Source: a virus
Virus record (IMG/VR): IMGVR_UViG_3300044568_003044
Location: 1-33,561 of that record
Length of the DNA: 33,561 nucleotides
Direction: 5' to 3' (one strand)
Position numbers and translations under genes: made by a program. Shown here in pieces: positions 3,311-32,965 of the stretch (position 1 is its first letter; each line of letters begins with the position of its first letter). Under the pieces are notes generated by a model. The model searched no databases. It was not told the origin of the DNA and saw nothing but the letters and a program-made list of their open reading frames with translations.

Positions 3311-4526
3311 AATGTACCACAGTCAAGTTCTCAATCTGTGGGAGTTTACGCCATGGATCAACCACCACACTACCATGTGGAATTGGGTAATACGGCAATG
3401 TGTCCGGTTGATCACCGGTGTACTCATAAGTGATCTTGCGATTGTGTGCCCAAAGGATGACCGCAGGACCGGTTAGTTCTGTAATAACTTCAGCAGGATC
3501 ATCTGCCAAGGGATCAAGATATCTCACATCATGTCCTGCTTGTTTGACATAATGTCCCACCAGCGTAGAGTATGATCCAATACAATATTCAACATCAGGT
3601 TTGTAGGCCTTGCCGTGAATCACAATACTCATGCCGTGTTGTTTGGCTTGGTCAACCAGGAACATGGCAAGATTTCGGGCTTGCATTTCTCTAGCATGCA
3701 TCACTGTGTCAAAAAAGTCGTAGCCAATGTCGTATTCTTTGGCCAACCAACGCAGTGCAATGTTGTCACGTGGATGGCATGCACCTGCATCGCCCATGCC
3801 CGCAGTCATGTACTTGGGGCCCATGATACGCATGGTGCTTCGTGCCAGGGCATCTGTTACAACGTCAACATTGATATTGCCAATCTTCAGCGCAAAGTCT
3901 TGAATCATGTTCACAAGGCCTACCTTGGCTGAAATAAATGTGTTGTAGAATATCTTCATTGCTTCACATTCGTCCCAGGTACCAATCTCATACCTGGGAT
4001 CGTTTACCATCATGGTCTTGTACAAATCAATCAGTTCGGCTGCTAAAGCATTGGGATTGCCATCTTCGGTACCAATCATGACCATTTCAGGATTGACCAT
4101 GTCCCACTTGACCGAGCCCATGGCAATCAAATAAGGATTGTACAAAAACTGATGTTGTTTATCTAATAGTGGGAAAAACTTGCGGCGTGTGGTTCCCGGC
4201 AATACTGTGGAAATTAACACAACCTTCTTTGATGATTTTGCGTACCGGTTGACATTGGCGATAGCACTAATCACAGCGTCATGTCCAAAGTCTCTGGGCT
4301 CCATGTGTGAGCTAGGTACCGAGCCATCATAGCCCTCAGCATGTGGAGTAGGCACAGCAATAAAAATCCATTCGCTTTCATTGACCAATTCATCAATATC
4401 ACAAACTTTTACTGAGTTGCTGACACGTGGGTAAATATCGTAACCGCGCACTTCGTGCTTTTCTGCCATAACTTCGGCACATTCAAGCCCCAGTTTGCCG
4501 ATACCAATAAATCCAATTTTCTTCAT
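3288..4526 (-). CDS. UDP-glucose/GDP-mannose 6-dehydrogenase family protein
   Basis: 412 residues. The Rossmann motif GIGKLG (8-13) opens the NAD domain, EAMKIFYNTF (188-197) supplies the central-helix Lys and Asn, and GMGDAGACHPRDN holds the catalytic Cys250. A C-terminal domain carries HGKAYKPDVE and a nucleotide-binding PLADDP region. The family oxidises the C6 alcohol of a nucleotide sugar to a uronic acid with two NAD+; the sugar here is unknown. The CfPKD motif is changed to CHPRD and the C-terminal domain is divergent, so this is a distant member. The start has AAAGGA 8-9 nt upstream. Its ATG abuts that of a divergent glycosyltransferase-like gene with no bases between (CATATG at 4524-4529). 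Confidence 0.85.
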   Translation of the reverse strand: MKKIGFIGIGKLGLECAEVMAEKHEVRGYDIYPRVSNSVKVCDIDELVNESEWIFIAVPTPHAEGYDGSVPSSHMEPRDFGHDAVISAIANVNRYAKSSKKVVLISTVLPGTTRRKFFPLLDKQHQFLYNPYLIAMGSVKWDMVNPEMVMIGTEDGNPNALAAELIDLYKTMMVNDPRYEIGTWDECEAMKIFYNTFISAKVGLVNMIQDFALKIGNINVDVVTDALARSTMRIMGPKYMTAGMGDAGACHPRDNIALRWLAKEYDIGYDFFDTVMHAREMQARNLAMFLVDQAKQHGMSIVIHGKAYKPDVEYCIGSYSTLVGHYVKQAGHDVRYLDPLADDPAEVITELTGPAVILWAHNRKITYEYTGDQPDTLPYYPIPHGSVVVDPWRKLPQIENLTVVHYGNTRNS

Positions 4527-5861
4527 ATGAGTGTTCCTTTAGATAGATTATACAACTTTTTAAGCAATATTTGCAATCGTAATGACTTAATAATTTATGT
4601 CTTTTTTCCACATGGCTCAAGAAAACTAGAGGACATTAGAATTTTACAAGATATTCAAAATAAAGATTGGATAGCTAAAGATTGGCTAGCACGTATGACC
4701 GTGCCTTCATTGATATTTCATGATCAAGAACCATTGCACTACAACTTGTATACTAAAGAAAAAATTAAAGATTATGTTGACACACACCATGAAACTGTAA
4801 ACTGTAAATCACAAAATGAGAAAAACCTTATTGCCAGCATGCATCTACGAGCATGTATAACAAGGCCTCTCAGTGTATATGACCAAGTGTTATTATGCCA
4901 TTCTGAGCAACATAGTAAAGATCTAGAGCTATATCAACGTAATGGATTCATTGGAGTGTACTATTGGAGTCATGCACTTATAGCTCGAGACTGGTTTAGA
5001 TTTGCCAAACTTGATCCTATGTTGCAACCAAATTTTGATGAAATTGTACATGATTTTTTAATCTACAATCGTGCCTGGTCCGGCACTAGAGAATATCGCT
5101 TGACCTTGGCAGAAATGCTGGCAAATAACAATTTGATATCATGTTGCAACACATCATTTTCAGAATTCGATCAGCAGTCTCATTACACCAAGCACATGTT
5201 TGCCAATTCTGATCTTGGTATCAATCGCAACGACCTACACAAAATATACAAGGCAAACACACATGATTCCTCTTCCAGTGCCGACTACAATTCACAAGAC
5301 TATGGTTCAAGTGCAATAGAAGTTGTACTGGAGACAATGTTTGACGATTCACGTCACCATCTGACTGAAAAAATACTTCGTCCAATTGCATGTGGCCGCC
5401 CGTTTATGTTGGCCTCAACTGCTGGCAGTTTACAATACCTGAAGCAATATGGATTTGGTACATTCCACGGATTAATAGATGAATCTTATGATCTTGTCAC
5501 TGACCCACGCATGCGGTTGACAGCAATAGTTCAAGAGATGAAACGAATACACAACCTTGATCGCAAAACAAAAAAATCATTATGGACTGAATTATATAAA
5601 ATTGCTGAACACAACAAAAAATTATTTTTTTCCGTTGACTGGCAGAATAATATTATAAAAGAATTCAAACAAAATTTTGACTCTGCAATGTCTCAAATGA
5701 CAGCCACAGGAAAATATCAAAAAGAGATGGAGAGATTGGCGCTCTCGGACCCAATAATTGCACACAACAGATCCACCGATAGTGCTGTGCCCGGAAGCCC
5801 AACAATGGAATGCAGGAAAAAACTTGCGCAATGGCTCAAAGCCAAAAACTCTCTCACTTGA
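4527..5861 (+). CDS. Glycosyltransferase-like protein with C-terminal TEK...DESYD signature
   Basis: 444 residues, one of only two plus-strand genes. The C-terminal half holds HLTEKILRPIACGRPFML, then SLQYLKQYGFGTFHGLIDESYD, a pattern like the acceptor or nucleotide-sugar region of exostosin/fucosyltransferase-type enzymes. The same signature recurs in the gene at 29784-30827, so they are distant paralogues. The N-terminal half (FFPHGSRKLEDIRIL, IFHDQEPLHYN) gives no clear catalytic motif. The ATG at 4527 is preferred over an in-frame ATG at 4455, which would lie inside the divergent dehydrogenase gene. No Shine-Dalgarno is present. The gene is visibly richer in A+T than its neighbours, suggesting recent acquisition. 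It converges with the next gene with an 8-bp tail overlap. Confidence 0.6.
   Translation: MSVPLDRLYNFLSNICNRNDLIIYVFFPHGSRKLEDIRILQDIQNKDWIAKDWLARMTVPSLIFHDQEPLHYNLYTKEKIKDYVDTHHETVNCKSQNEKNLIASMHLRACITRPLSVYDQVLLCHSEQHSKDLELYQRNGFIGVYYWSHALIARDWFRFAKLDPMLQPNFDEIVHDFLIYNRAWSGTREYRLTLAEMLANNNLISCCNTSFSEFDQQSHYTKHMFANSDLGINRNDLHKIYKANTHDSSSSADYNSQDYGSSAIEVVLETMFDDSRHHLTEKILRPIACGRPFMLASTAGSLQYLKQYGFGTFHGLIDESYDLVTDPRMRLTAIVQEMKRIHNLDRKTKKSLWTELYKIAEHNKKLFFSVDWQNNIIKEFKQNFDSAMSQMTATGKYQKEMERLALSDPIIAHNRSTDSAVPGSPTMECRKKLAQWLKAKNSLT
4547..4576 (-). promoter_or_regulatory. Possible promoter of the dehydrogenase gene inside the divergent gene
   Basis: On the minus strand TTGCAA (4576-4571), 18 bp, TATAAT (4552-4547), followed by AAAGGA and the ATG at 4526. 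The promoter lies wholly within the first codons of the divergent plus-strand gene, so the two transcription units overlap. The -35 is only a partial match. Confidence 0.4.
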
Positions 5862-7932: not shown

Positions 7933-8157
7933 TCAATAAAGTTTCTTTGGCAAAGCCTGTTCGGCTAGTTTTTTGCGCCAACGATTAGCAGCCGCTGACT
8001 TTTTGCGTTTGCGTTCGGTTGTGGGTTTTTCGTAGAATTCTTTGGCTCGCACATCGTCTAAAATGCCTGACGTTTGAATTTTCTTTTTGAATTTGCGTAG
8101 TGCTTTGTCTATGTTGCCGTCTGTGACCAGTACTGATCTACCCCTTAGCTTTTCCAT
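7933..8157 (-). CDS. rpsU: Ribosomal protein bS21
   Basis: 74 residues, highly basic, of the bS21 type: an N-terminal [24 protein letters not shown] segment, then [24 protein letters not shown]. bS21 binds the 30S subunit near the anti-Shine-Dalgarno end of 16S rRNA and helps initiation. Phage-encoded bS21 is known from large environmental phages, where it is thought to replace host bS21 and bias translation. The start overlaps the end of clpX by 20 bp, so it is probably translated after ClpX from the same mRNA. In this window, where several phage genes seem leaderless or lack a Shine-Dalgarno, that role is of particular interest. Confidence 0.93.
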
Positions 8158-9352
8158 TTGCTTCCTTTAGTTCTGTAGGGGTATTTACCTGATCTGCGTC
8201 AATATATACACGGTTTATTCCTTGCTTGCGATAACTGGCCAAATAGAACATATGGGGCAATAACACACGTTCAAGTTCAGAATGTAGGCCTCTGGCACCA
8301 GTTTTGTTCAAAATAGTGCGATCTGCAATTGTTTCCAAAGCGTCAGGGCTAAATTCCAGCTCCACTTGATCTTGCTCAAACAACCATGAATACTGTGCAA
8401 TATAACTGTGTTTGACATCCAACAAAATACGTATTAGATCTTCTTTATCAAGTTCTTGCAATGCTACCCAGCTAGGAAAACGACCCACAAACTCAGGAAT
8501 CATACCAAACTTTATCAAGTCTTCAGGTGTGGTTTGATCAAGATGAGCGTTGGTATCTGAATTTACCTGAGCACCAAACCCAATTGAAGTTCCGCGCACA
8601 CGATTCTTCACTACGTTGTCTAGACCAACAAACGCACCACCAGCAATAAACAAGATGTTGGTGGTATCAATCTCAATCATCTCTCCTGTCGGGTGCTTGC
8701 GATTACCTGTGGGAGTGACTCTGCACTTGGTGCCTTCTACCAGTTTGAGCAAGGCCTGCTGTACACCTTCTCCTGATACATCTCTGGTGATACTGGCACT
8801 CTCACTGCGCCGGCTGATCTTGTCAATTTCATCAATGAACACAATACCACGCTGTGTTTTAGCAACATCGCCGCCAGCGGCAGCAAACAATCTGGATATC
8901 AAACTCTCAACATCATCACCAACATATCCTGCTTCGGTCAGACTGGTGGCATCTGCAATCACAAACGGTACATCCAAGTAACGTGCCACAGTTTTGGCCA
9001 GCAGTGTTTTGCCCGAGCCTGTGGGGCCAAGCATAAGAATATTACATTTCTCAACTTCTATGTCTGGGTTGGGGTTGGTAATACGTTTGTAGTGATTTAC
9101 AACTGCCACACTAAGCACTTGTTTGGCACGATCTTGACCAATCACATATTGATCTAAATGTTTTTTTATGTGTTCAGGATCCATCACAACAGGACTAACC
9201 TGGCTGGTGATGTTTTCATCTTTTAGCAAAGTTTCACACAATTCCACACACTCATTACAAATAGCAACATCTTCTCCTACTATTAATTTGGCCACGGCGT
9301 CTTTGTGTTTTGCGCAAAAACTGCAAGTTGTGATTTGTTCAGTTGATTTCAT
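8138..9352 (-). CDS. clpX: ClpX, AAA+ unfoldase of ClpXP
   Basis: 404 residues, near the length of bacterial ClpX. The zinc-binding domain has CSFC and CNEC pairs (about 10-13 and 32-35). The AAA+ module has Walker A GPTGSGKT (109-116), pore loop GYVG (142-145), Walker B IVFIDEID (170-177), RKH loop (218-220), Arg finger PEFVGRF and sensor-2 GARGL (352-356). The IGF loop (257-259) that docks on ClpP is intact, so it should work with host ClpP; no ClpP is encoded here. The start shares an ATGA overlap with the upstream membrane-protein gene. A full-length ClpX in a phage is unusual and would compete with host ClpX, perhaps with different substrate choice. Confidence 0.95.
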
Positions 9353-11795: not shown

Positions 11796-12485
11796 TTATT
11801 TCCTATCGCCAAACAATTGCAACAAGTTCAAGAACAAGTTGATAAAGTCCATGTACAAGGTCAACGCACCCGACACCTCAACTGCATCGCTAGTTTCAAC
11901 ACTGACCATTTCACGGATCCGTTGTGTGTCATAGGCAGTGAGACCCAAGAAGATAATGATAGCCAGTGCAGAGATCACCATCTGCATCACGGTGCTGCCA
12001 ATAAAGATGTTCACAATACTGGCAATACAGATGGCGATCAATCCCACAAACATAAACTTGCCAACACTGTCTAGGCTACGTTTGGTAAAGTATCCATAAA
12101 AACTCATGACACCAAACAGCACACCCGCACCCATAAATGCGGATACTATACTGCCCATGGTGAATATGGCAAAGATGGTGGCAAAACTTAGACCCATCAG
12201 AGCGGCAAAGCCATGCAAGCATAACTGTGCCACGCCCTTGCTGGGATTGTTAGCCAGTACCGCAGAAATGCCAAAGATTGCCACAAGCGGGGCAAAAATC
12301 ACAATCCATTTTGTTATGCCTGTGAAAAACAATTGTAGCAACTCTGGTGTGGTTCCCACCCAGTAACTGACCAGCATACTCACAATCACTGCTAGACTCA
12401 TGTGTCCGTAAACACGGCCCATGGCCGAGTTGATTTGTTCTGCTGAACGGTATTGTTCATCATTAAAAATAAGTGTATCATTCAT
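11796..12485 (-). CDS. Bax inhibitor-1/YccA-family membrane protein
   Basis: 229 residues from the ATG at 12485, chosen because AAAGGAG lies 6 nt upstream; an in-frame upstream start would lie in the previous gene. About seven hydrophobic segments follow a short polar N-terminus. The family pattern is clear: INSAMGRVYGHMSLAVIVSM at the start, YDTQRIREM after the sixth segment, and ALTLYMDFINLFLNLLQLFG at the C-terminus. In E. coli the relative YccA binds and inhibits the FtsH protease; others carry calcium or protons. A phage copy could tune FtsH turnover of membrane or phage regulatory proteins, which fits with the nearby Clp genes. The role is inferred. Confidence 0.9.
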   Translation of the reverse strand: MNDTLIFNDEQYRSAEQINSAMGRVYGHMSLAVIVSMLVSYWVGTTPELLQLFFTGITKWIVIFAPLVAIFGISAVLANNPSKGVAQLCLHGFAALMGLSFATIFAIFTMGSIVSAFMGAGVLFGVMSFYGYFTKRSLDSVGKFMFVGLIAICIASIVNIFIGSTVMQMVISALAIIIFLGLTAYDTQRIREMVSVETSDAVEVSGALTLYMDFINLFLNLLQLFGDRK

Positions 12486-12496
12486 AGTTTTCTCCT

Positions 12497-13702
12497 TTAA
12501 GGTCTGTTGGTTGGCCACCTGGCCCGTACATTGTTTGCAGGCACTACAATGTGTTCTAGTGCCACTGCTGGATCCCACTCCAAACAATACTTAGCACGAT
12601 TCTTGCGTCCCAGTGCTGTATTGGGATCATAATCAATCCAGGTAAACTCTGTGCCATTACATTCGGGGCAATAATCGTTGTACTCATCATCACGTCTGCG
12701 CTGTTCACCGTGTCCGACCCAACCGCATTTTTTATTATCACAACTGACATCTACAGGTTCTGGAGGTTGGTTGGCCCAGTCACTTGTGTCCCAGCTATAG
12801 CCACTCCAGCACTTGACACCTTCTTGACGCACAGGATTGAACTTGCCATATTCCCAGTCACCAAATGCAGTGCCGTTCCAGTACAAACTGCCAAAGGAAC
12901 TACCGCCACCCCAGTTCACACTATAGTAACCTGGAATAGTAGGTTTTAGTTTCTTAAACTTAAATGTTTCTGTCTGTTCCCATCTACTGGGACTGGTTCC
13001 ATGTGGAGGATGTCCCCAGTCTTTTTCTTTGGGTTCATAGCGTTCCCAATCACCACCCTTTTTGATCCTGCACATGGTAAAGTCCGAACTCTTGCCGTCT
13101 GTGCTACCGCCCCAGTTGTCAATGTCTTCACCATCGTATTGTACGCCATTGACAATTTCTTCACTGTCAATGTCATCGTAGCACAGAGTTAGTTTGGTAA
13201 TGTCGAATGGTTGCGTAAGTTCAATATGTCCTTCAAAGAACGTGCCTTTTTCATTTGAATTTCCAACAAACACTACCTTGCCAGGTTTGATCTGACCAAC
13301 CCATACTGTTTCTCCACATGCCCATTTGGGGTTGTCTTCCTCGTCATTGTCACATTCCTCTAGGCTTTTTGCAAAAACTGTATTGAGATTTTCATCTTCA
13401 ATCTGTAGCGTACCTGCATCGCGACTTGTACCATTAACGTGTGCTAGGTCATCACATTCATACCACGACCCTGCAGAGAACGGCAACATGTCAGGATCAA
13501 GTCCCATGCTGGCCACAGTATCCTCATCGCCCCAGGCAATGTCCGACAAGTCAACTTGGTTGGCCATGCAATAGTCCCAGACTTTCCGATCTACGGTGCC
13601 CATGACCTTTTCACCGCCATAACCCCATAGGCTGACTTTGTAGGTTCTTGGCGTAAATTTCAGAACTTCAATGAGTTTTTTTTGTTCTTCAATGGTGGCC
13701 AT
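12497..13702 (-). CDS. Conserved phage protein with C-terminal zinc ribbon
   Basis: 401 residues. Most of the protein is Trp-, Gly- and Asp-rich with repeated WGG/WNG turns, suggesting beta structure. Near the C-terminus SCDNKKCGWVGHGEQ and YCPECNGTEF provide a CX4C/CX2C zinc ribbon. Function is not recognised; a carbohydrate- or nucleic-acid-binding role is possible. AGAGGAT precedes the ATG. The gene follows a 37-codon gene by 1 bp and ends just before the RBS of the Bax-inhibitor-like gene, so it is in the same operon. Confidence 0.75.
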   Translation of the reverse strand: MATIEEQKKLIEVLKFTPRTYKVSLWGYGGEKVMGTVDRKVWDYCMANQVDLSDIAWGDEDTVASMGLDPDMLPFSAGSWYECDDLAHVNGTSRDAGTLQIEDENLNTVFAKSLEECDNDEEDNPKWACGETVWVGQIKPGKVVFVGNSNEKGTFFEGHIELTQPFDITKLTLCYDDIDSEEIVNGVQYDGEDIDNWGGSTDGKSSDFTMCRIKKGGDWERYEPKEKDWGHPPHGTSPSRWEQTETFKFKKLKPTIPGYYSVNWGGGSSFGSLYWNGTAFGDWEYGKFNPVRQEGVKCWSGYSWDTSDWANQPPEPVDVSCDNKKCGWVGHGEQRRRDDEYNDYCPECNGTEFTWIDYDPNTALGRKNRAKYCLEWDPAVALEHIVVPANNVRARWPTNRP

Positions 13703-17958: not shown

Positions 17959-19056
17959 TTAGAACGTGTGACGTAAGCCAACTGCGGTGCGCTTTGTTAC
18001 ACCAGCAGTGGAAGTAGCACCTGCTGTGTTGGTGTCAGCATCACGAGTGTCAAAACGTGCATACAAGTTGGTTCTCTTGCTGAGCGCATGATCCACACCG
18101 TAGCCAAGAATTTTCTTGTCTACATTGGCTGTGCTCTTTTCGTTGCTAGAACCAGTTGACCACATGATGCTTGTAGCACCAACGGTGTACTTGGCACCAA
18201 ACATTTGTCCAGTCTGGTCGATAGCGGTGGCTGTGTTTTGTTTTTCTGTCCAACGACCACCATACACAGTTGCGGCACCAATCTTGTAGTTGGCCGACAA
18301 CATGCTGAGAGTGTTGTTGGTACCATCAGTCAAGGCCTGTGAACCAGTGGCAATGAATGATGCAGTGGTAGTGGCCAAAGTGCCTGACTGTTCGATACGC
18401 TGAGAGGCATACTGCACACTCACGGGACCATTCACATATTTCACACCATAGTCAACCACACTCTGAGCATTGACGCTGGCACTTGGTGGCACATACAAAT
18501 AAGAACCACTTACACCTGCCACTGCTGGAGACTCATAACGAATGGCTCCATTGAAACGTGTTGGTGCTGTTTGTGCTGTGTGAGTTGCTGTGGCACTATA
18601 TCTTGTCAAGATGTTGCCGTTTGAACCATAACCTGATCCAATGGCTGTACCAAACACAGATCCGTTGCCCCAGGCATCCAGGATGTTGGAATTCACACGA
18701 CCAAGTTTCACAGTGCCCCAGTTGGCTTCTGTGCCGATAAAGGCTTCTTGACCTAGGCCCACAGTGCCTGCTGTGGTTGAGTTGTATGAGGTTCCTTCAA
18801 CTCCGGCACCATTGATAAAATCTGGTGTGAGTTGCAGTCGGAAATTGGCACGGAGTCCGCCGCCTAGATCCTCTGTGCCGCCAATGGTCAGCACTGTGGT
18901 GGCTGAATTACTGGCAGCAAGACCTTTGGTATTGACACCAGTGGCTGCATTGGTGAACAACAGGCCGGTATCAACCAAGCCAGTGATGTTGACAGCACTT
19001 TGAGCAAACACAGAGGTGGCCGCAAGTGCAATCATGATTGCGAAGATTTTCTTCAT
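17959..19056 (-). CDS. Trimeric outer-membrane porin, Burkholderiales type
   Basis: 365 residues. A signal peptide MKKIFAIMIALAATSVFA ends at Ala18-Gln19. The mature protein starts SAVNITGLVDTGL, like the first beta strand of betaproteobacterial porins. It carries TVKLGRVNS after about 110 residues, has alternating polar/aromatic strands throughout, and ends VGLRHTF with the C-terminal Phe needed for BAM-dependent insertion. The expected product is a 16-stranded general porin. RBS AAAAGGA precedes the ATG. It has its own sigma70 promoter and an intrinsic terminator, so it is independent of neighbouring virion genes. The closest source is probably the host. A phage porin could change nutrient uptake or replace a receptor to block superinfection; both are inferences. 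Confidence 0.93.
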   Translation of the reverse strand: MKKIFAIMIALAATSVFAQSAVNITGLVDTGLLFTNAATGVNTKGLAASNSATTVLTIGGTEDLGGGLRANFRLQLTPDFINGAGVEGTSYNSTTAGTVGLGQEAFIGTEANWGTVKLGRVNSNILDAWGNGSVFGTAIGSGYGSNGNILTRYSATATHTAQTAPTRFNGAIRYESPAVAGVSGSYLYVPPSASVNAQSVVDYGVKYVNGPVSVQYASQRIEQSGTLATTTASFIATGSQALTDGTNNTLSMLSANYKIGAATVYGGRWTEKQNTATAIDQTGQMFGAKYTVGATSIMWSTGSSNEKSTANVDKKILGYGVDHALSKRTNLYARFDTRDADTNTAGATSTAGVTKRTAVGLRHTF

Positions 19057-24417: not shown

Positions 24418-24615
24418 CTAATTGTTCCAGTGTCTTATAACGCCAGCAATAATAAAGCCACAGGTCACCACATGTATTACGACCCAAAACGTTTTGAAAA
24501 ACAAGGCTATTCGGGCTTCTCGCAAGGTCAGTATAGGCACATCTGGACGATCATGATCTGATTCACCCATCAAGTGCCCGGTGGCCCGGGCCCAGATCTT
24601 TTCTATGCTGTTCAT
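24418..24615 (-). CDS. Small membrane protein next to nrdA
   Basis: 65 residues from ATG at 24615, which overlaps the nrdA stop (ATGA). A polar N-terminal half with a His/Asp-rich part (GESDHDRPDVPILTL) precedes one hydrophobic segment near the C-terminus (WVVIHVVTCGFIIAGVI). It ends 1 bp before the aldolase start. Function unknown; the tight coupling argues that it is real. Confidence 0.72.
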   Translation of the reverse strand: MNSIEKIWARATGHLMGESDHDRPDVPILTLREARIALFFKTFWVVIHVVTCGFIIAGVIRHWNN

Positions 24616-26930
24616 AGCTTGCAAGCGATGCAATCTTCTTCAAGATCAAAGTCAATCGCTTCAAGAGGTGCAGATTCGTTGTCCACTTGTTTGCTACCTT
24701 GTTTGTTCACCAAACTGTAATAGAAGGTCTTGATTCCCCAGTGATGTGCCTGCATTAGATTTTTTGCAATCAGGGTGGTTGGTATCTTGCGATCCGCAAA
24801 GTGTGCCGGGTTATAAAAAGTATTTGTGCTGATACTTTGATCCACATAGGCCGCCAACACAGCCGCTGTTTTCAAGTAACCATCACAGTCTTTCTGCGCC
24901 CACATCATTTGATATTTGTTTTTCAACTTGTGGTACTCGGGCACCACTTGTGTTAACGATCCTGCTTTGGATTCTTTTACAGAGATCAGGCTCATGGGCA
25001 TTTCAATGCCATTGGTAGAGTTGATTACTACACTACTAGACTCTACCGGTGCAATGGCCATCAGTGTGGCGTTACGCACACCGTATGCCCGCATGTCAGC
25101 ACGTAGACTTTCCCAGTTCAGTTCAGGAGAGAAGTCGGTGAGTTCGTTGACCCCTTTAGCACGTCGTTCCCAAGGAAAGATACCACGACCGTACCAGGTG
25201 CGGTCCGAATCTTTGCAACGGCCCCGCTCCTTAGCAAGCTCAACTGTGGCTTCGGTAAGGTAGAAAGCCTGATGTTCCATCCACGACTTGACTTCGGCCA
25301 AAGCGTCCTTGTTACCATATTGGAGTCCGCGCTTGGCATGCCAGTAAGCCAGGTTAGTAATACCGATACCAAGCGGCTGGATTTCGTCATTTGATAACTG
25401 GCTTTGGATTGACAGGAAGTCTTGGTAGTCAAGAATATTACACAAGGATCTCTGCAGAATTCTACAAGCTCTCCGCATGTCCTCAGGATTTCGGAATGCA
25501 CCCCAGTTAATACTTCCCAGCGTACAGAGGGCAATTCGCCCTGCAGGATCATCCAGGCGCTTAAACGGTTTCGTAGGCAAGAGAATTTCACAGCAAAGAT
25601 TACTCTGGTAAATGGTATGGTATTCAGTATCAAACGGTCCTTGATTCTGAACGTTGTCAATGAACACTAGATAGATACGTCCGGTGTCTGTTCGCTCTTT
25701 GAGTATGCCTGACTTGAACACTTCTTCTGCGCTCATGGTCTTGGTACGCAGGTCCCGACGCTTTTCATATTCAACATAAAGTTTTTCAAAGCGTTCAGTG
25801 TTGGCATAGAACGCTTCGTACAGTTCAGGTACTTCGTTGGGGTCAAAAAAAGTTATGTTTTCTTTGTTCTTGAATCGTCTCCAGAAAAATGCGGAAAGAA
25901 CAACCCCATAGTCCATGTGCCGGACACGGGTTTCTTCTGTTCCTTGATTGTTCTTAAGAACAATAAGATCATCAAACTGATGATGCCAAATAGGATAGAA
26001 TACAGTAGCACTTGCATTGCGAATACCTCCTTGTGAACATGATCGCAAATCTCCGAACCATTTTTTCAGGAATGGTATCATACCTGTGTGCATAATCTCA
26101 CCACCTCTGATGGGACTACCCAACGGACGTAAACGTCCTATCTCCAAGCCAATGCCAGCACGTTTGCTGGCATACTTGGCCATCATTTCACCACTAGCAA
26201 AAATACTATCCAGGTCATCATCACTCCTAATGAGTACGCACGAACTGAACTGCTTAGTAGGGGTACCGAGACCAGCAAGGACGGGAGTAGCAAGGGTAAA
26301 TAATCCATCACTTGCGGCATTGTAGTATTCCTTTATGTAACGCATACGGGCTGTGTTGGGTTCTTCCGTGTGGAACACCGTGGCAGCCGCAATCATGTAA
26401 CGAACTTGTGGCGTTTCATAAATCTCTTTTGTTGAGCGATTGCGGACAAGATATTTTTCAATCAGTTGTTCCACTGCCGCATACGAATATTGCTCGTCCT
26501 TCACATGGTCGATCATGTCTTCCATACGATTCCAATCGTCTTCCGAGTACCACTCCAACAATTCAGAGGTATACAAGCCAGTGGCCACATTCCGCTTCAC
26601 AATTTCATACAAGTGTGGAGGATCGTATGAACCGTATACATCTTTACGCAACATTGACAGTCGTTGTTTGCCTGCCACGTATTGATAGTTGGTATGGCCA
26701 ACATCAGGATTTGATTCTACGTCAATCAGATCCACTATGGCTCTGAGTGTGATACCGTCAATTTCTTTTGTTGTGATACCATCATAGAAATGCAACTGAG
26801 CTTTGATCTCGATCATGCTCTGACTTACATCTGCTATGCCTGCACAAACCTTGGCTATTTGTGCTTGCCATTTTTCCAATGCCAGTGGCTCGCGAGTTCC
26901 GTCACGTTTTTGTACTATAATTTGCTTCAT
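24612..26930 (-). CDS. nrdA: Class Ia ribonucleotide reductase alpha subunit NrdA
   Basis: 772 residues from the ATG at 26930, where the ATP-cone sequence VQKRDGTREPLALEKW begins; an upstream in-frame ATG would add 32 residues of non-conserved sequence inside the previous gene. Catalytic residues are Cys231 (SSCVL), the NLCCE loop with Asn444, Cys446 and Glu448, and Cys469 in IALCTLGSINW. The C-terminus CIACKL carries the redox pair that passes electrons from glutaredoxin. The enzyme reduces ribonucleotides for phage replication. The extra Cys447 next to the catalytic Cys differs from E. coli (NLCLE). It forms an operon with the genes that follow. Confidence 0.97.
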   Translation of the reverse strand: MKQIIVQKRDGTREPLALEKWQAQIAKVCAGIADVSQSMIEIKAQLHFYDGITTKEIDGITLRAIVDLIDVESNPDVGHTNYQYVAGKQRLSMLRKDVYGSYDPPHLYEIVKRNVATGLYTSELLEWYSEDDWNRMEDMIDHVKDEQYSYAAVEQLIEKYLVRNRSTKEIYETPQVRYMIAAATVFHTEEPNTARMRYIKEYYNAASDGLFTLATPVLAGLGTPTKQFSSCVLIRSDDDLDSIFASGEMMAKYASKRAGIGLEIGRLRPLGSPIRGGEIMHTGMIPFLKKWFGDLRSCSQGGIRNASATVFYPIWHHQFDDLIVLKNNQGTEETRVRHMDYGVVLSAFFWRRFKNKENITFFDPNEVPELYEAFYANTERFEKLYVEYEKRRDLRTKTMSAEEVFKSGILKERTDTGRIYLVFIDNVQNQGPFDTEYHTIYQSNLCCEILLPTKPFKRLDDPAGRIALCTLGSINWGAFRNPEDMRRACRILQRSLCNILDYQDFLSIQSQLSNDEIQPLGIGITNLAYWHAKRGLQYGNKDALAEVKSWMEHQAFYLTEATVELAKERGRCKDSDRTWYGRGIFPWERRAKGVNELTDFSPELNWESLRADMRAYGVRNATLMAIAPVESSSVVINSTNGIEMPMSLISVKESKAGSLTQVVPEYHKLKNKYQMMWAQKDCDGYLKTAAVLAAYVDQSISTNTFYNPAHFADRKIPTTLIAKNLMQAHHWGIKTFYYSLVNKQGSKQVDNESAPLEAIDFDLEEDCIACKL

Positions 26931-26932
26931 TG

Positions 26933-27358
26933 TTACCCGATTTGTTGTTGTATTTGCTCTTGCGTGATGCTGTGTCGACTTTGTGATCCCGTTGGATTGA
27001 TATTTACGACAGTAGTTGGATCCCAATTCAGTATATATTTCTTTTTGGTAACCAGGACTAAATTGTCGCTATCAAACTCAGCCAACACAGCATCCTGCAG
27101 ATCTGGTCGATCCAGCATAGTTATAGTATACATGATTCCCAGCCCGCGAGCAAGAGGACAATAGAGATCATCGCTCAATAATTGCCAAGGATCAGGCCAA
27201 ACAGCTTGATCGTCCCAGTGTAAATGATATGCTCGCCAGGGAGTTTGAAACCACCATGAATTGATGGCACTGAGTGCGGTTTCCGTATCAGCAGTGGAGG
27301 CTTGCTCACGGAGTCGTGCCCAACTCTCAAGCCGTTCGGCAAAAGTTCTGGGCCACAT
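26933..27358 (-). CDS. Conserved phage protein between tail fibre and nrdA
   Basis: 141 residues from the ATG at 27358, which overlaps the tail-fibre stop by one base (TAATG). It starts MWPRTFAERLESWARLREQ and contains INSWWFQTPWRAYHLHWDD, QAVWPDPWQLL and KYILNWDPTTVVNINP. The Trp-rich pattern recurs next to tail and nucleotide genes of T4-like aquatic phages by recollection. Its place directly after the tail fibre suggests a fibre-assembly or virion role, but this is inference. Confidence 0.72.
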   Translation of the reverse strand: MWPRTFAERLESWARLREQASTADTETALSAINSWWFQTPWRAYHLHWDDQAVWPDPWQLLSDDLYCPLARGLGIMYTITMLDRPDLQDAVLAEFDSDNLVLVTKKKYILNWDPTTVVNINPTGSQSRHSITQEQIQQQIG

Positions 27359-29179: not shown

Positions 29180-29896
29180 TCACATATTTAGCATGTAGTA
29201 CTGTTCAACCTTTTTCCACCATAGGGTACGGTATTTCTCAAATTCTGCGCCTTCCAGCACAAATTCCTGATAAACTGGCTTACCAATGATATTGTGTTGC
29301 TCATCCAAGTCAGGTTTGACGCACATCAAAATCACACCTTTGCGTATTTTTGTACCATGCAGTTCGTTGTGTGCTTCTGCGTAGGCACAAAGTTGTACAA
29401 AGTAGTCGTCGATCCACTCACGTTTTTTGGGTTTGTTGGTCTGTTTGTAATCCAGGATAGATTCTTCATTTAGGTGCATGCCTGCGCCGTCTGTTGTGCC
29501 TGCGTACACCCCGGGGAAGTACAATGGAACTTCAATACCCCAAAATTCATTGACGTTTTTGAGTCCTTCTCGGATCACAGTTTCTGCCATGATATGACTG
29601 GGCCAAGAGAAAGGATTAGATCCACGCGGCGGAACAGCACCTTCTTTGATGTAACGTTCCAGGTACGTGTGCATACGTGTGCCACGATTGGCCGCTTCGG
29701 TTGTGATTTGCTGTGCTTTGACTTCACCTACTGCTCGTCGCCAGTTGTGCAAGGCCGCCTTGCTGGCTTCGCTTTTGGTCCGGTCAAGGATTGTGGTTAC
29801 TGACGGTAAGTTTTGCCCGTCTGGGGTAGCGTAGTAGCGTTTGCCCTGTATTGTAACTCTGGGAATGGGTTCGTAGTTGAATTTTACTTTGTACAT
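29180..29896 (-). CDS. RecB-like PD-(D/E)XK exonuclease
   Basis: 238 residues from the ATG at 29896, the start shared with the truncated copy at 31165. Motifs: RGTRMHTYLE (His76), WGIEVPLY (Glu122), GTTDG (Asp136), ILDYKQ (Asp149, Lys151) and QLCAYAEAH (Gln168, Tyr172), the set of RecB/Cas4-like nucleases. No Fe-S cysteine cluster is present. A role in recombination or DNA processing is likely. The first 112 bp overlap the end of the glycosyltransferase-like gene in another frame, an unusually long overlap for this genome. The first 97 residues are about 91% identical to the partial copy upstream. Confidence 0.88.
   Translation of the reverse strand: MYKVKFNYEPIPRVTIQGKRYYATPDGQNLPSVTTILDRTKSEASKAALHNWRRAVGEVKAQQITTEAANRGTRMHTYLERYIKEGAVPPRGSNPFSWPSHIMAETVIREGLKNVNEFWGIEVPLYFPGVYAGTTDGAGMHLNEESILDYKQTNKPKKREWIDDYFVQLCAYAEAHNELHGTKIRKGVILMCVKPDLDEQHNIIGKPVYQEFVLEGAEFEKYRTLWWKKVEQYYMLNM
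29185..29191 (-). promoter_or_regulatory. Possible late promoter CTAAATA of the tail fibre
   Basis: CTAAATA on the minus strand about 25 nt before the GTG of the tail fibre. The same heptamer lies at nearly the same distance from the GTG of pstS. T4-like phages of cyanobacteria use CTAAATA-type late promoters. The motif is short, so chance is possible. Confidence 0.35.
29611..29896 (-). repeat. Exonuclease N-terminus repeat, copy in the full gene
   Basis: 286 bp aligned without gaps to 30880-31165, roughly 85% identical by eye. Most differences are silent: about 9 of 97 codons change the residue. Confidence 0.9.
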
Positions 29897-30827
29897 AATT
29901 GTGATATATATCGATATTTTTTCTTGCTTTTTCTTGCATTTCAGCAATAATTTCTGTTTTGTTTGGGGCAAGATACAATGTTTGCAGACTATCAATTATA
30001 GCACGAATACGTTGTGCGGGCAATACACAATCATCATAACTTTCGTCAATGCTCTTGGCAAATGTAGTAAATCCCATGTGTCTGAGATTTTTCAAACTGT
30101 GTTGTCCGCTCAACAACACAAAAGGTTTTCCTGTGCTCAAACACTTGGCAGTTTTCTCTGTAAACCATTGATTTTGATATTCATCAGTTTCACATATGAT
30201 TTCAATTTGAAATTGGTTCCAAATTTTTGGGTACTCACGCACAGCGACGTTTAAGTCGATGACTTCAAATTCGCCTAATAACAAATCATTATTAAATTTT
30301 CGATTGTTGTACCATGTTGTTTCTTGTTGGTACCATTGTTGCAATCGAGATAAAAGAGATTTGGCCATTTTGTGTGTTATAAATGCATCTCCAGGAAATG
30401 CTTTATCTACTTCATAACACATTCGCATTCTTGCCACACTCCATCTGCTACCGGCCAGTACTCCAACAAATTTTGCTGCATCAAGATCTCGGTTGATGCT
30501 TGTAGATTCAAGCAGAGTTCCAACTTGTTCAAACGCTTCCAGTGGAAATGGAATCCAACACCACTGTGGTAGACTAGGACTTACACTTACAAAACAAATT
30601 TTGTCATTGGGAATATTGAGTGCGTGTTGCATCAATTTAATCCACTCCACCAATACCGGTAATAATACGTTGTCGCCGTCTGTCGAAAAAAAACAAAGTT
30701 CTTGCGCAGAATAATGCAATATCAATTGATCTTCTAAAATTTGTAAATGATTTGTGGTATAATCTTTTCGTATAACCTTTCCTAAATTTATCTCAATGCG
30801 CTCTGTACCGATTTCCAACAAATTCAT
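29784..30827 (-). CDS. Glycosyltransferase-like protein with TEK...DESYD signature
   Basis: 347 residues. The C-terminal part has FTEKTAKCLSTGKPFVL, SLKNLRHMGFTTF and KSIDESYDD, the signature shared with the plus-strand gene at 4527-5861. The N-terminal half includes LCFFSTDGDNVLLPVLVEW and VSVSPSLPQWCW and is not recognised. The ATG at 30827 overlaps the TGA of the chimeric gene, in exactly the way the SGNH-like gene overlaps iscA. About 37 C-terminal residues are read in another frame through the exonuclease start, so the original 3' end may have been replaced by recombination. The gene is AT-rich compared with its neighbours. Confidence 0.6.
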   Translation of the reverse strand: MNLLEIGTERIEINLGKVIRKDYTTNHLQILEDQLILHYSAQELCFFSTDGDNVLLPVLVEWIKLMQHALNIPNDKICFVSVSPSLPQWCWIPFPLEAFEQVGTLLESTSINRDLDAAKFVGVLAGSRWSVARMRMCYEVDKAFPGDAFITHKMAKSLLSRLQQWYQQETTWYNNRKFNNDLLLGEFEVIDLNVAVREYPKIWNQFQIEIICETDEYQNQWFTEKTAKCLSTGKPFVLLSGQHSLKNLRHMGFTTFAKSIDESYDDCVLPAQRIRAIIDSLQTLYLAPNKTEIIAEMQEKARKNIDIYHNYVQSKIQLRTHSQSYNTGQTLLRYPRRAKLTVSNHNP

Positions 30828-30879
30828 ACTCTAAAACTTTCTCCGCAACCGCAACGGTCACGTTCATTGGGATTGGAGA
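30825..30879 (-). repeat. IscA tail repeat, copy inside the chimeric gene
   Basis: 55 bp matching 31851-31905 with three differences. It covers the IscA C-terminal codons up to the ATG of the next gene. Confidence 0.9.
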
Positions 30880-31165
30880 AGGGATTGGATCCACGCGGTG
30901 GCACAGCACCTTCTTTGATGTAACGTTCCAGATACGTGTGCATGCGTGTGCCACGATTGGCCGCTTCTGTTGTGATTTGTTGTGCTTTGGCTTCGCCCAC
31001 TGATCGACGCCAGTTGTGCAAGGCGGCCTTGCTGGCTTCGCTTTTGGTTTTGTCAAGAATTGTAGTTACTGAGGGCAAGTTTTGCCCATCTGGAGTGGCA
31101 TAGTAACGCCGGCCCTCTATTGTGACCCGGGGAATTGGTTGATAATCAAATTTTGGATTGTACAA
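30880..31165 (-). repeat. Exonuclease N-terminus repeat, truncated copy
   Basis: Partner of 29611-29896. Homology ends abruptly at the joint with the IscA tail repeat. Confidence 0.9.
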
Positions 31166-31175
31166 TTTTTAAACT

Positions 31176-31853
31176 TTAATAAAATTCGGAATACATTGGA
31201 TACAAATAATCTCTGAGCTTTCGGTGAGAATACCTGTCAGGATGCATTGCTTGCCATCCGCCGATGTTCCATGTTTTAATTTTTGCATCAACTTGCGCAA
31301 CAATGTTTAGCCATTCTGACTTTTGGATAAAATTATTTGTTTTTGTTATTTTAAATTCATTCAAACTTGTGGGACCAAAAATAGATTTTGGGTAAGTTTC
31401 ATGCACTATACTTCCCCAACTTGAAACAGCAATTTCTAGATTTGAAAATTTATCAATCCAATTTGGTTCTATGTCGCACCAACCGCCAATTAATTTAATA
31501 TGAATATTGTGTTTTTTTGCCAATTGGTCAGCACCCGAAAATGCCTTTGTTAACGCATTCATTAGGTGTGCTTCTAGGCCAACAATACCTAATATATTTT
31601 CAACATCGGTATCCCGTGCAGGTTCAGTTACAATCCAGTAAAATTGGTCGTTGTCATCAGATTGATACTTAAATAAAAACTTGTCAAGAAGATCCAATCC
31701 TAATAGATTACTACCTCGAGGTTTAGAAAGATTTAGCACATTAAAATTGTAATTGAGAAGTTCTGTAATGCCCGGGCCAGTAACTACCATTGATTGATTT
31801 GATTCAACTCCCCATTCTCCTACTCCCCAACTATCACCTATTATAACAATCAT
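31176..31853 (-). CDS. SGNH/GDSL-like hydrolase family protein
   Basis: 225 residues. IIGDSWGVGEWG at the N-terminus gives the GDS nucleophile motif, and HPDRYSHRKL near the C-terminus gives the Asp...His pair of block V. The middle (YWIVTEPARD, KLIGGWCDIEPNW) is divergent, so hydrolase activity is likely but not certain. Family members remove acyl groups from sugars or lipids. The ATG overlaps the iscA stop (ATGA) and the stop lies 10 bp before the chimeric gene. The gene is visibly AT-rich, unlike iscU and iscA before it. Confidence 0.72.
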   Translation of the reverse strand: MIVIIGDSWGVGEWGVESNQSMVVTGPGITELLNYNFNVLNLSKPRGSNLLGLDLLDKFLFKYQSDDNDQFYWIVTEPARDTDVENILGIVGLEAHLMNALTKAFSGADQLAKKHNIHIKLIGGWCDIEPNWIDKFSNLEIAVSSWGSIVHETYPKSIFGPTSLNEFKITKTNNFIQKSEWLNIVAQVDAKIKTWNIGGWQAMHPDRYSHRKLRDYLYPMYSEFY

Positions 31854-32173
31854 ACCCTAAAACTTTCTCCGCAACCGCAACGGTCACGTTCATTGGGGTT
31901 GGAAAAGTCAAAGCCTTCGTTAAGACCCTGACGCACATAATCTACTGTCATGTTTTGAAGATACACGTTGTCTTTTTGATTTACCAACACAACAAACTCT
32001 GGCTGTGCATAATTGATAACATACTGTTCCGATGTGTATTCTTTAACATACTCTAACACATAAGCAAGCCCGGAGCAACCTGTGGTTTTAACCCCAAGGC
32101 GAATACCAGCATAGTTTTTGGTTGTAACTAACTTTTGTATTTTTGTTCGGGCTGTGTCAGTGAACGAGATCAT
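31850..32173 (-). CDS. IscA/ErpA-type iron-sulfur carrier
   Basis: 107 residues. The three conserved cysteines of A-type carriers are present: Cys33 in TTGCSGLAYVLEY and Cys99/Cys101 in CGCGESF. The VDYVRQGLNEGFDFSNPN segment before the last pair is also canonical. It carries Fe-S clusters or iron to target proteins. The start overlaps the end of iscU by 17 bp. Its last codons form a repeat found again at 30825-30879. Confidence 0.95.
   Translation of the reverse strand: MISFTDTARTKIQKLVTTKNYAGIRLGVKTTGCSGLAYVLEYVKEYTSEQYVINYAQPEFVVLVNQKDNVYLQNMTVDYVRQGLNEGFDFSNPNERDRCGCGESFRV
31851..31905 (-). repeat. IscA tail repeat, copy in iscA
   Basis: Partner of 30825-30879, ending exactly at the start codon of the following cargo gene in both places. 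Confidence 0.9.
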
Positions 32174-32540
32174 GCTTCTTGCGATAGTCTGCTACTGCGG
32201 CTTTGATGGCGTCTTCTGCAAGGATTGAGCAGTGGATTTTGACTGGTGGGAGAGCAAGTTCTTCAGCAATCTGGCTATTTCGAATGGATCCTGCTTCTTC
32301 AAGTGTTCGACCTTTAACCCATTCCGTAACGAGGCTAGAACTTGCGATTGCGCTTCCGCATCCGTATGTTTTGAATCGTGCATCTGTGATAATCCCATCT
32401 GTTACTTTTATCTGTAACTTCATGACATCTCCGCAAGCAGGCGCACCAACCATGCCGGTGCCGACTGAGTCGTCAATTTCAAATTTGCCCACGTTGCGTG
32501 GATTTTCGTAGTGATCTACGACTTTGTCTGAGTATGCCAT
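32157..32540 (-). CDS. iscU: IscU, iron-sulfur cluster scaffold
   Basis: 127 residues, full length for IscU. Cluster ligands are Cys36 with Asp38 (GAPACGDVM), Cys60 (TYGCGSAIAS) and Cys103 with His102 (KIHCSIL). The HscA-binding motif LPPVK (96-100) is present, so the host IscS and HscAB could use it. Cluster assembly may support phage Fe-S enzymes or repair host supply. No IscS is encoded nearby. It has its own promoter. Confidence 0.97.
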   Translation of the reverse strand: MAYSDKVVDHYENPRNVGKFEIDDSVGTGMVGAPACGDVMKLQIKVTDGIITDARFKTYGCGSAIASSSLVTEWVKGRTLEEAGSIRNSQIAEELALPPVKIHCSILAEDAIKAAVADYRKKHDLVH

Positions 32541-32558
32541 ATAAACTTTCTATAGTCG

Positions 32559-32587
32559 AGTATACTATATTTAACGTTTCGTGTCAA
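32559..32587 (-). promoter_or_regulatory. Sigma70-type promoter of iscU
   Basis: TTGACA (32587-32582), 17 bp and TATACT (32564-32559) on the minus strand, again with GG before the -35. A leader of about 16 nt with a weak GAAAG site precedes the ATG. Confidence 0.78.
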
Positions 32588-32602
32588 CCTTAGGTCGACT
32601 GA

Positions 32603-32965
32603 TTAGACGCCGCGGTCTTTGTTCATGGCCGATTTGGCTGCTGACGCCACAATGTCTTGCGCTTTGTTCACTGGCATGGCAACATCTGGTTGCCCGGCAC
32701 CTTTAAATGCAAGTATGCCTGTGTTTGGATCCATGGGTTCCAACAAGTTGCTGAGTGGCTCTTGACTCACAACATCAGCTAGATTTTGGGCAGTGATGTT
32801 GATATCCAAATCATTGGCCAGTTTGATAAATGCATCTTGACTAATCTCTTTTCGAGCGTTGGTATCATTGGCACGGCCATTAAGGAACTGTACCAGGCCC
32901 GACAGTTGCGCTGGATTAGGCAAAGGCGCCATTCCCATGCTACTGTCAACTTCGAATATTTTCAT
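32603..32965 (-). CDS. Hypothetical phage protein, probably virion-associated
   Basis: 120 residues, MKIFEVDSSMGMAPLPNPAQ at the start, then helical sequence (DAFIKLANDLDINITAQNLADVV) and a Pro/Gly-containing end with KDRGV. No enzyme motif or membrane segment. Its start overlaps the stop of the low-complexity protein before it (TAATG), suggesting a shared structural role, but this is inferred. Confidence 0.65.
   Translation of the reverse strand: MKIFEVDSSMGMAPLPNPAQLSGLVQFLNGRANDTNARKEISQDAFIKLANDLDINITAQNLADVVSQEPLSNLLEPMDPNTGILAFKGAGQPDVAMPVNKAQDIVASAAKSAMNKDRGV

Follow-up and report, generated by a model that had tools for sequence, protein, structure and literature searches.

A minus-strand open reading frame (ORF) of 113 codons in the viral record IMGVR_UViG_3300044568_003044, whose entire 33,561 nucleotides (the window) were analysed, joins the first 97 codons of an exonuclease (exo) allele in frame with the last 16 codons of iscA. 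We regard this hybrid ORF, with a probability of roughly 0.8, as the recombination scar of two alleles of one gene slot and as the seam between two stacked cargo genes, X1 and X2. On the minus strand, the order of the genes is IscU-IscA-X1-hybrid ORF-X2-intact exonuclease.

Composition and occurrence of the hybrid ORF

The hybrid ORF (30824..31165) starts with TTG at position 31165 and ends with TGA at position 30824. Its N-terminal part (residues 8-90) was assigned to phrog_298, a phage exonuclease family (E 3.7e-24), and its end (residues 96-113) to phrog_17776 (E 4.9e-5), the family that is also matched by the IscA protein of the window. At the DNA level, positions 30876-31164 repeat the start of the resident exo gene (29607-29895; 289 nt, 85% identity) and positions 30824-30881 repeat the end of iscA (31850-31907; 58 nt, 95% identity). 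According to these repeats and a comparison of alleles, the exo-derived part (30876..31165, minus strand) consists of codons 1-97 of a TTG-start exo allele that is not the resident one, while the IscA-derived tail (30824..30881, minus strand) ends with NPNERDRCGCGESFRV and the stop codon and retains the CGCGESF motif, including the CGCG cysteines. The tail also bears an ATGA stop-start overlap, by which the stop of the hybrid ORF overlaps the ATG of X2 by 4 nt (30827/30824); the stop of the intact iscA overlaps the start of X1 likewise (31853/31850). The in-frame exo-IscA chimera with a stop overlapping the next start, as described in the first-pass annotation, is thus confirmed by the ORF, the phrog matches, and the DNA repeats. 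A reading of the TTG as a degraded start codon was rejected, TTG being the usual exo start in close relatives in which exo directly follows iscA.

The intact resident exonuclease (29180..29896, minus strand) is assigned by family matches to phrog_298 and is PD-(D/E)XK-like. Its TDG (residue 135) and DYKQ (residue 149), which we take to be the PD-(D/E)XK motifs, lie beyond the 97 residues that are present in the scar, and the same holds for a PDDEXK_1 stretch at residues 146-224, which was found with Pfam below the cut-off of that family. The description of the fragment as a dead nuclease agrees with this early end.

A search of IMG/VR with a degenerate joint pattern revealed the same joint in four further contigs from four data sets, which align with the window over 7,609, 10,057, 3,593, and 4,255 nt with 1, 0, 0, and 2 mismatches, respectively (99.95-100% identity); this search returned one near-identical lineage only and no diverged relatives with the scar.

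A variable cargo slot between iscA and exo

The region has conserved flanks and a content that varies among relatives, which makes it a variable cargo slot. A set of 253 loci was reduced to 152 in which iscA and exo lie near each other on one strand, and to 124 distinct loci after collapsing identical slot sequences. The spacing between iscA and exo is below 70 nt in 79 of these 124 loci and above 300 nt in the other 45, and the gap between iscU and iscA exceeds 300 nt in 35 of 112 loci. Clustering of the cargo ORFs, for which only plus-oriented ORFs of at least 100 amino acids were used, gave 28 sequence clusters including the scar itself, one iscA copy, and one iscU copy; 18 members belong to the X2 family and nine to the X1 family. 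Radical SAM matches were obtained for 8 of the 31 other cargo proteins sampled, and genes for Fe-S assembly and radical SAM proteins are described together in the T4-like marine viral genomes reported in PMC5332604. In the locus L210 (1865-2909), a 125-codon ORF separates two IscA-like genes, and an exo-like gene lies downstream.

The end of iscA differs with the content of the slot. A TGA stop is present in 31 of the 45 loci with cargo vs 2 of the 79 loci without cargo (Fisher p 4e-16, a value that is overstated because the loci are related). Without cargo, iscA mostly ends with GTTTAA, which is followed in close relatives by the TTG of exo. Among the 124 slot loci, a TGA end of iscA with an overlapping start codon occurs almost only where cargo follows, and 21 cargo ORFs between iscA and exo, representing seven sequence clusters, have their predicted start at -4, exactly on the iscA stop.

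In the window, the slot is preceded by IscU (NifU_N; 32157..32540) and by the intact IscA, an A-type Fe-S carrier (31850..32173), both on the minus strand and assigned by family matches. A promoter-like minus-strand site upstream of iscU (TTGACA-17-TATACT, 32559..32587) is a consensus match only, and a promoter scan of positions 29700-32700 gave 9 sites vs 7.6 expected, which is chance level. The X1 cargo (31176..31853, minus strand) is predicted from its structure model (pLDDT 88) to have an SGNH/GDSL-type hydrolase fold, the leading structure matches being esterases and thioesterases of this fold (best PDB match E 1.1e-4; TM-scores 0.4-0.5). For the X2 cargo (29784..30827, minus strand; pLDDT 85), the model predicts a GT-B-like glycosyltransferase fold, with matches to TreT and MurG at E about 2e-4 and TM-scores of 0.3-0.4. 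The end of the X2 ORF overlaps the start of exo by 113 nt in another frame (29784-29896), and relatives of the X2 family overlap exo too (L016, L012, L112, and L113). A plus-strand protein encoded at 4455-5861 has a C-terminal stretch in common with X2 (37% identity over 87 residues). Further minus-strand genes of host type were recognized with Pfam, namely those for a phosphate-binding-like solute-binding protein (3-503), UvdE (815-1864), a ClpX-like ATPase (8138-9352), a protein of the Bax-inhibitor family (11796-12587), a Gram-negative porin (17959-19056), and the large chain of ribonucleotide reductase (24612-26945).

Origin of the seam

Both one-cargo arrangements exist, the borders of the window match them, and the exo fragment differs from the resident exo allele. 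The locus L112 has the order IscA-X2-Exo (97, 94, and 95% amino acid identity to the window proteins, respectively) without X1 and without the scar; its DNA is 90.8% identical to the window over 3,500 nt from the IscA tail onward and 89-96% identical upstream. The order IscA-X1-Exo is found in L039 and L085-L089, of which L085, L039, and L087 have the same 10-nt spacer between X1 and exo as the window as well as a TTG start of exo. The borders between the IscA tail and X2 and between X2 and exo in the window match those of L112, and the iscA/X1 border resembles that of L085. The X1 proteins of the IscA-X1-Exo loci are only 56-58% identical to that of the window, and beyond the lineage that carries the scar the searches yielded no closer donor.

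From this comparison, we infer two parents instead of a duplication within one genome, and the following order of events. A recipient with the arrangement IscA-X2-Exo would have acquired part of the DNA of an IscA-X1-Exo donor. The left join would probably go back to homologous recombination of the usual kind, within the strongly conserved iscA end, and the right join to microhomology linking the donor exo (Phe-Ser, up to codon 97) back to the recipient iscA. The return point, at the Phe-Ser codons of iscA 16 codons before its end, would lie slightly upstream of the exit point. The product would be IscA-X1-(exoN/IscA tail)-X2-Exo, with two cargos and one hybrid ORF between them. The IscA tail of the scar equals the resident iscA at 54 of 57 nt (the best of 123 others reaches 53) and could derive from a copying event in the lineage itself.

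The joint itself (30876..30881, minus strand) is the overlap of the two repeats, which amounts to 6 nt, with a match of 5-6 nt; the TTCTC microhomology at the Phe-Ser codons is common to the exo and iscA variants of the collection. At this place, the encoded residues are Asn-Pro-Phe-Ser-Trp in exo and Phe-Ser-Asn-Pro in iscA, and the Phe-Ser codons have the same phase in both genes. The frame was therefore kept because the joint was made at a phase-matched microhomology, which explains the open frame by itself. The estimate in the first-pass annotation that a random joint would keep the frame in one case of three therefore has to be taken with caution, as the equal phase of the Phe-Ser codons makes the frame automatic. 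Of the three frames at the joint, one ends on the X2 start with the 4-nt overlap, the second enters X2 by 35 nt, and the third stops 36 nt short of it.

Translation across the seam

In L112, X2 likewise starts on the stop of iscA itself, so that the upstream context of X2 was preserved by the joint. The seam was likely tolerated since the IscA tail brought the stop-start overlap of X2, by which ribosomes leaving X1 would still reach X2. In the E. coli reporters described in PMC10666635, a foreign ORF to which no more than the terminal 15 nt of the upstream gene had been attached supported termination-reinitiation, and coupling was almost lost with a gap of about 20 nt. Because 3' ends of this length suffice in E. 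coli according to these reporter data, the proposed architecture could work, and coupling of X1 to X2 through the scar is plausible.

A stronger claim is that selection keeps the hybrid ORF open as a relay that carries ribosomes from X1 to X2 via the ATGA overlap, the peptide being irrelevant, and this we consider rather unlikely. The short 3' ends active in the reporters would be compatible with it, as are the identity of the ATGA overlap with that of the IscA-X2 pair in L112 and the position of the 21 cargo ORFs on the iscA stop, but 4-nt overlaps are common in the genome of the window, where they occur at 6 of 41 neighbouring pairs of a hand-made minus-strand gene list, two of the six at the hybrid locus. 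Moreover, two of the three frames reach the X2 start or go beyond it, the phase-matched microhomology accounts for the frame, and only near-identical carriers were retrieved in the searches. Neither the joint nor the two starts showed RNA structure in excess of shuffled sequences (z 0.23, -0.31, and 1.12). The earlier suggestion that the hybrid ORF is retained for translation alone is unsupported: the microhomology explains the frame, the low amino acid change (see below) fits a recent capture, and in a parallel fossil (L264/L266, below) the ORF kept its end on the X2-family start in spite of a frame change by 1 nt.

Also in favour of such a relay, two further slot fossils leave short ORFs that reach the start of an X2-family gene. 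In L016 (3641-3736), 53 nt of exo debris, 96% identical to the exo gene of L016 itself, lie between iscA and an X2-family gene and form a 31-codon ORF that starts on the iscA stop and overlaps the start of the X2-family gene. This debris was absent from the 12 nearest relatives in a cargo search in which 13 iscA-bearing loci were inspected, including L016's own contig, and 20 weaker matches were left out. In L264 and L266 (2900-3010 in both), a cargo gene has been cut by a deletion at a short repeat to an ORF of 25-26 codons, whereas L263 and L265 have it complete. The two loci differ by 1 nt in frame, yet the short ORF terminates at the X2-family start in each of them; the fossil may represent one event common to both, and the 1-nt indel of L264 could be a sequencing error. 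A scan of 49 iscA-exo and 36 iscU-iscA segments longer than 60 nt from the 124 loci detected exo debris only in the lineage of the window and in L016. Matches in L152 and L210 were rejected as scars, both representing whole genes (iscU after iscA in L152, an extra IscA-like gene in L210).

Together, the hybrid ORF, the L016 debris, and the cut-down gene of L264/L266 would be three independent cases of a sorting process in which, upon rearrangement of the slot, only those joints survive whose leftover ORF ends at the next start, so that debris is sorted into relay ORFs. We regard this generalization as unlikely; the fossils make the relay idea worth testing without proving it.

Source and state of the exo fragment

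For a comparison of exo sequences, L001, which has the same joint as the window, was excluded, and sequences that are less than 62% identical to the resident exo or not open were dropped, leaving 83; the tree was calculated with 60 rows. The fragment is 89% identical to the exo of L004 vs about 85% (85.5%) to the resident one; over its first 47 nt, it equals the exo of L006 and has 72% identity to the resident exo. The tree places the resident exo together with that of L112 (support 95/98), to the exclusion of the fragment. That the fragment was simply copied from the resident exo is disfavoured by its closeness to L004 and its L006-class 5' end, although the AU test is compatible with it, a placement of the fragment and the resident exo as sisters not being rejected (p = 0.204).

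These data bear on the possibility that iscA-end, cargo, and exo-start were tandemly duplicated in place and that one cargo copy was then swapped by homologous exchange. Such a duplication would yield the same gene order, is allowed by the AU test, and fits the IscA tail of the scar being closest to the resident iscA. It requires two steps, however, and is at odds with the TTG-start class of the fragment's 5' end and with an X1/exo border that is that of IscA-X1-Exo phages, and we judge it quite improbable. The tree and the allele class favour two parents, and recombination of two slot alleles is retained as the preferred origin. The further slot fossils in L016 and L264/L266 and the TGA end of iscA in cargo-bearing loci also speak for it.

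Relative to the exo of L004, the fragment has accumulated 27.5 synonymous and 2.5 amino acid changes, and each of its residues is seen elsewhere among the 83 exo sequences, so that it has no private residue. No decay in the form of stops or excess amino acid change was observed, and the frame is open. The fragment would thus have been a working exo until recently or may still be under constraint, both being consistent with the data; few amino acid changes are also what one would expect if part of a functional exo gene had been captured not long ago. As an interpretation, purifying selection acting on the scar was set aside, its signal being inseparable from inheritance from a working exo and the four near-identical carriers giving the comparison no power.

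That the exo N-terminal piece and the IscA tail act together as a functional fusion protein is very improbable. The open frame, the few amino acid changes vs the L004 exo, and the preserved CGCGESF motif could be read in this way, but the nuclease motifs are gone, the IscA part comprises only 16-18 codons, the hybrid is confined to one lineage, and both intact genes are nearby. An assembly artefact, to which the repeats flanking the joint might point, is very unlikely because the identical joint is present in the four contigs from four data sets, and repeats of 85 and 95% identity should be different enough for reads to separate them.

Relation to known systems and significance

The seam is ordinary recombination of a known kind, unusually well resolved. 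In phage T4, duplications arise at homologies of 2-10 bp (PMC9391042, citing Kumagai 1993, Wu 1991, and Wu 2021), and the seam resembles the microhomology duplications and amplifications described there in its joint of a few bases, the duplicated stretch, and the gain of gene content. In the T4 cases of that report, however, one locus is tandemly copied in one genome, whereas in the window two slot alleles were apparently joined and a hybrid ORF was left behind. The slot as such is reminiscent of the hyperplastic regions of T4-like phages as outlined in PMC2984593, in which variable cargo lies between conserved neighbours; the slot of the window is located at iscU-iscA-exo in uncultured phages, and the likeness concerns the slot arrangement alone. 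With its ATGA overlap, the hybrid ORF resembles the -4-overlap termination-reinitiation pairs of PMC10666635 and PMC2174442, and its layout corresponds to the reporters of the former, in which a foreign ORF with a short upstream 3' end still couples. The fusion in the window, however, is natural and has a dead hybrid as the upstream ORF, and its coupling is putative. Like the composite (mosaic) viral genes treated in PMC4202312, the hybrid combines segments of unrelated families in one ORF, but unlike them it is without sign of protein function. Among the literature titles searched, no published account of the scar or the slot was found.

With both parental types in hand, a slot that often holds one cargo or none can be seen to have come to hold two while the seam is still fresh, and this slot sits among Fe-S assembly genes. 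From the strong link between cargo and a TGA stop of iscA, a rule that can be tested follows for the entry of new genes into a phage operon. Should the relay interpretation prove true, some of the gene debris that phages carry would serve translation.
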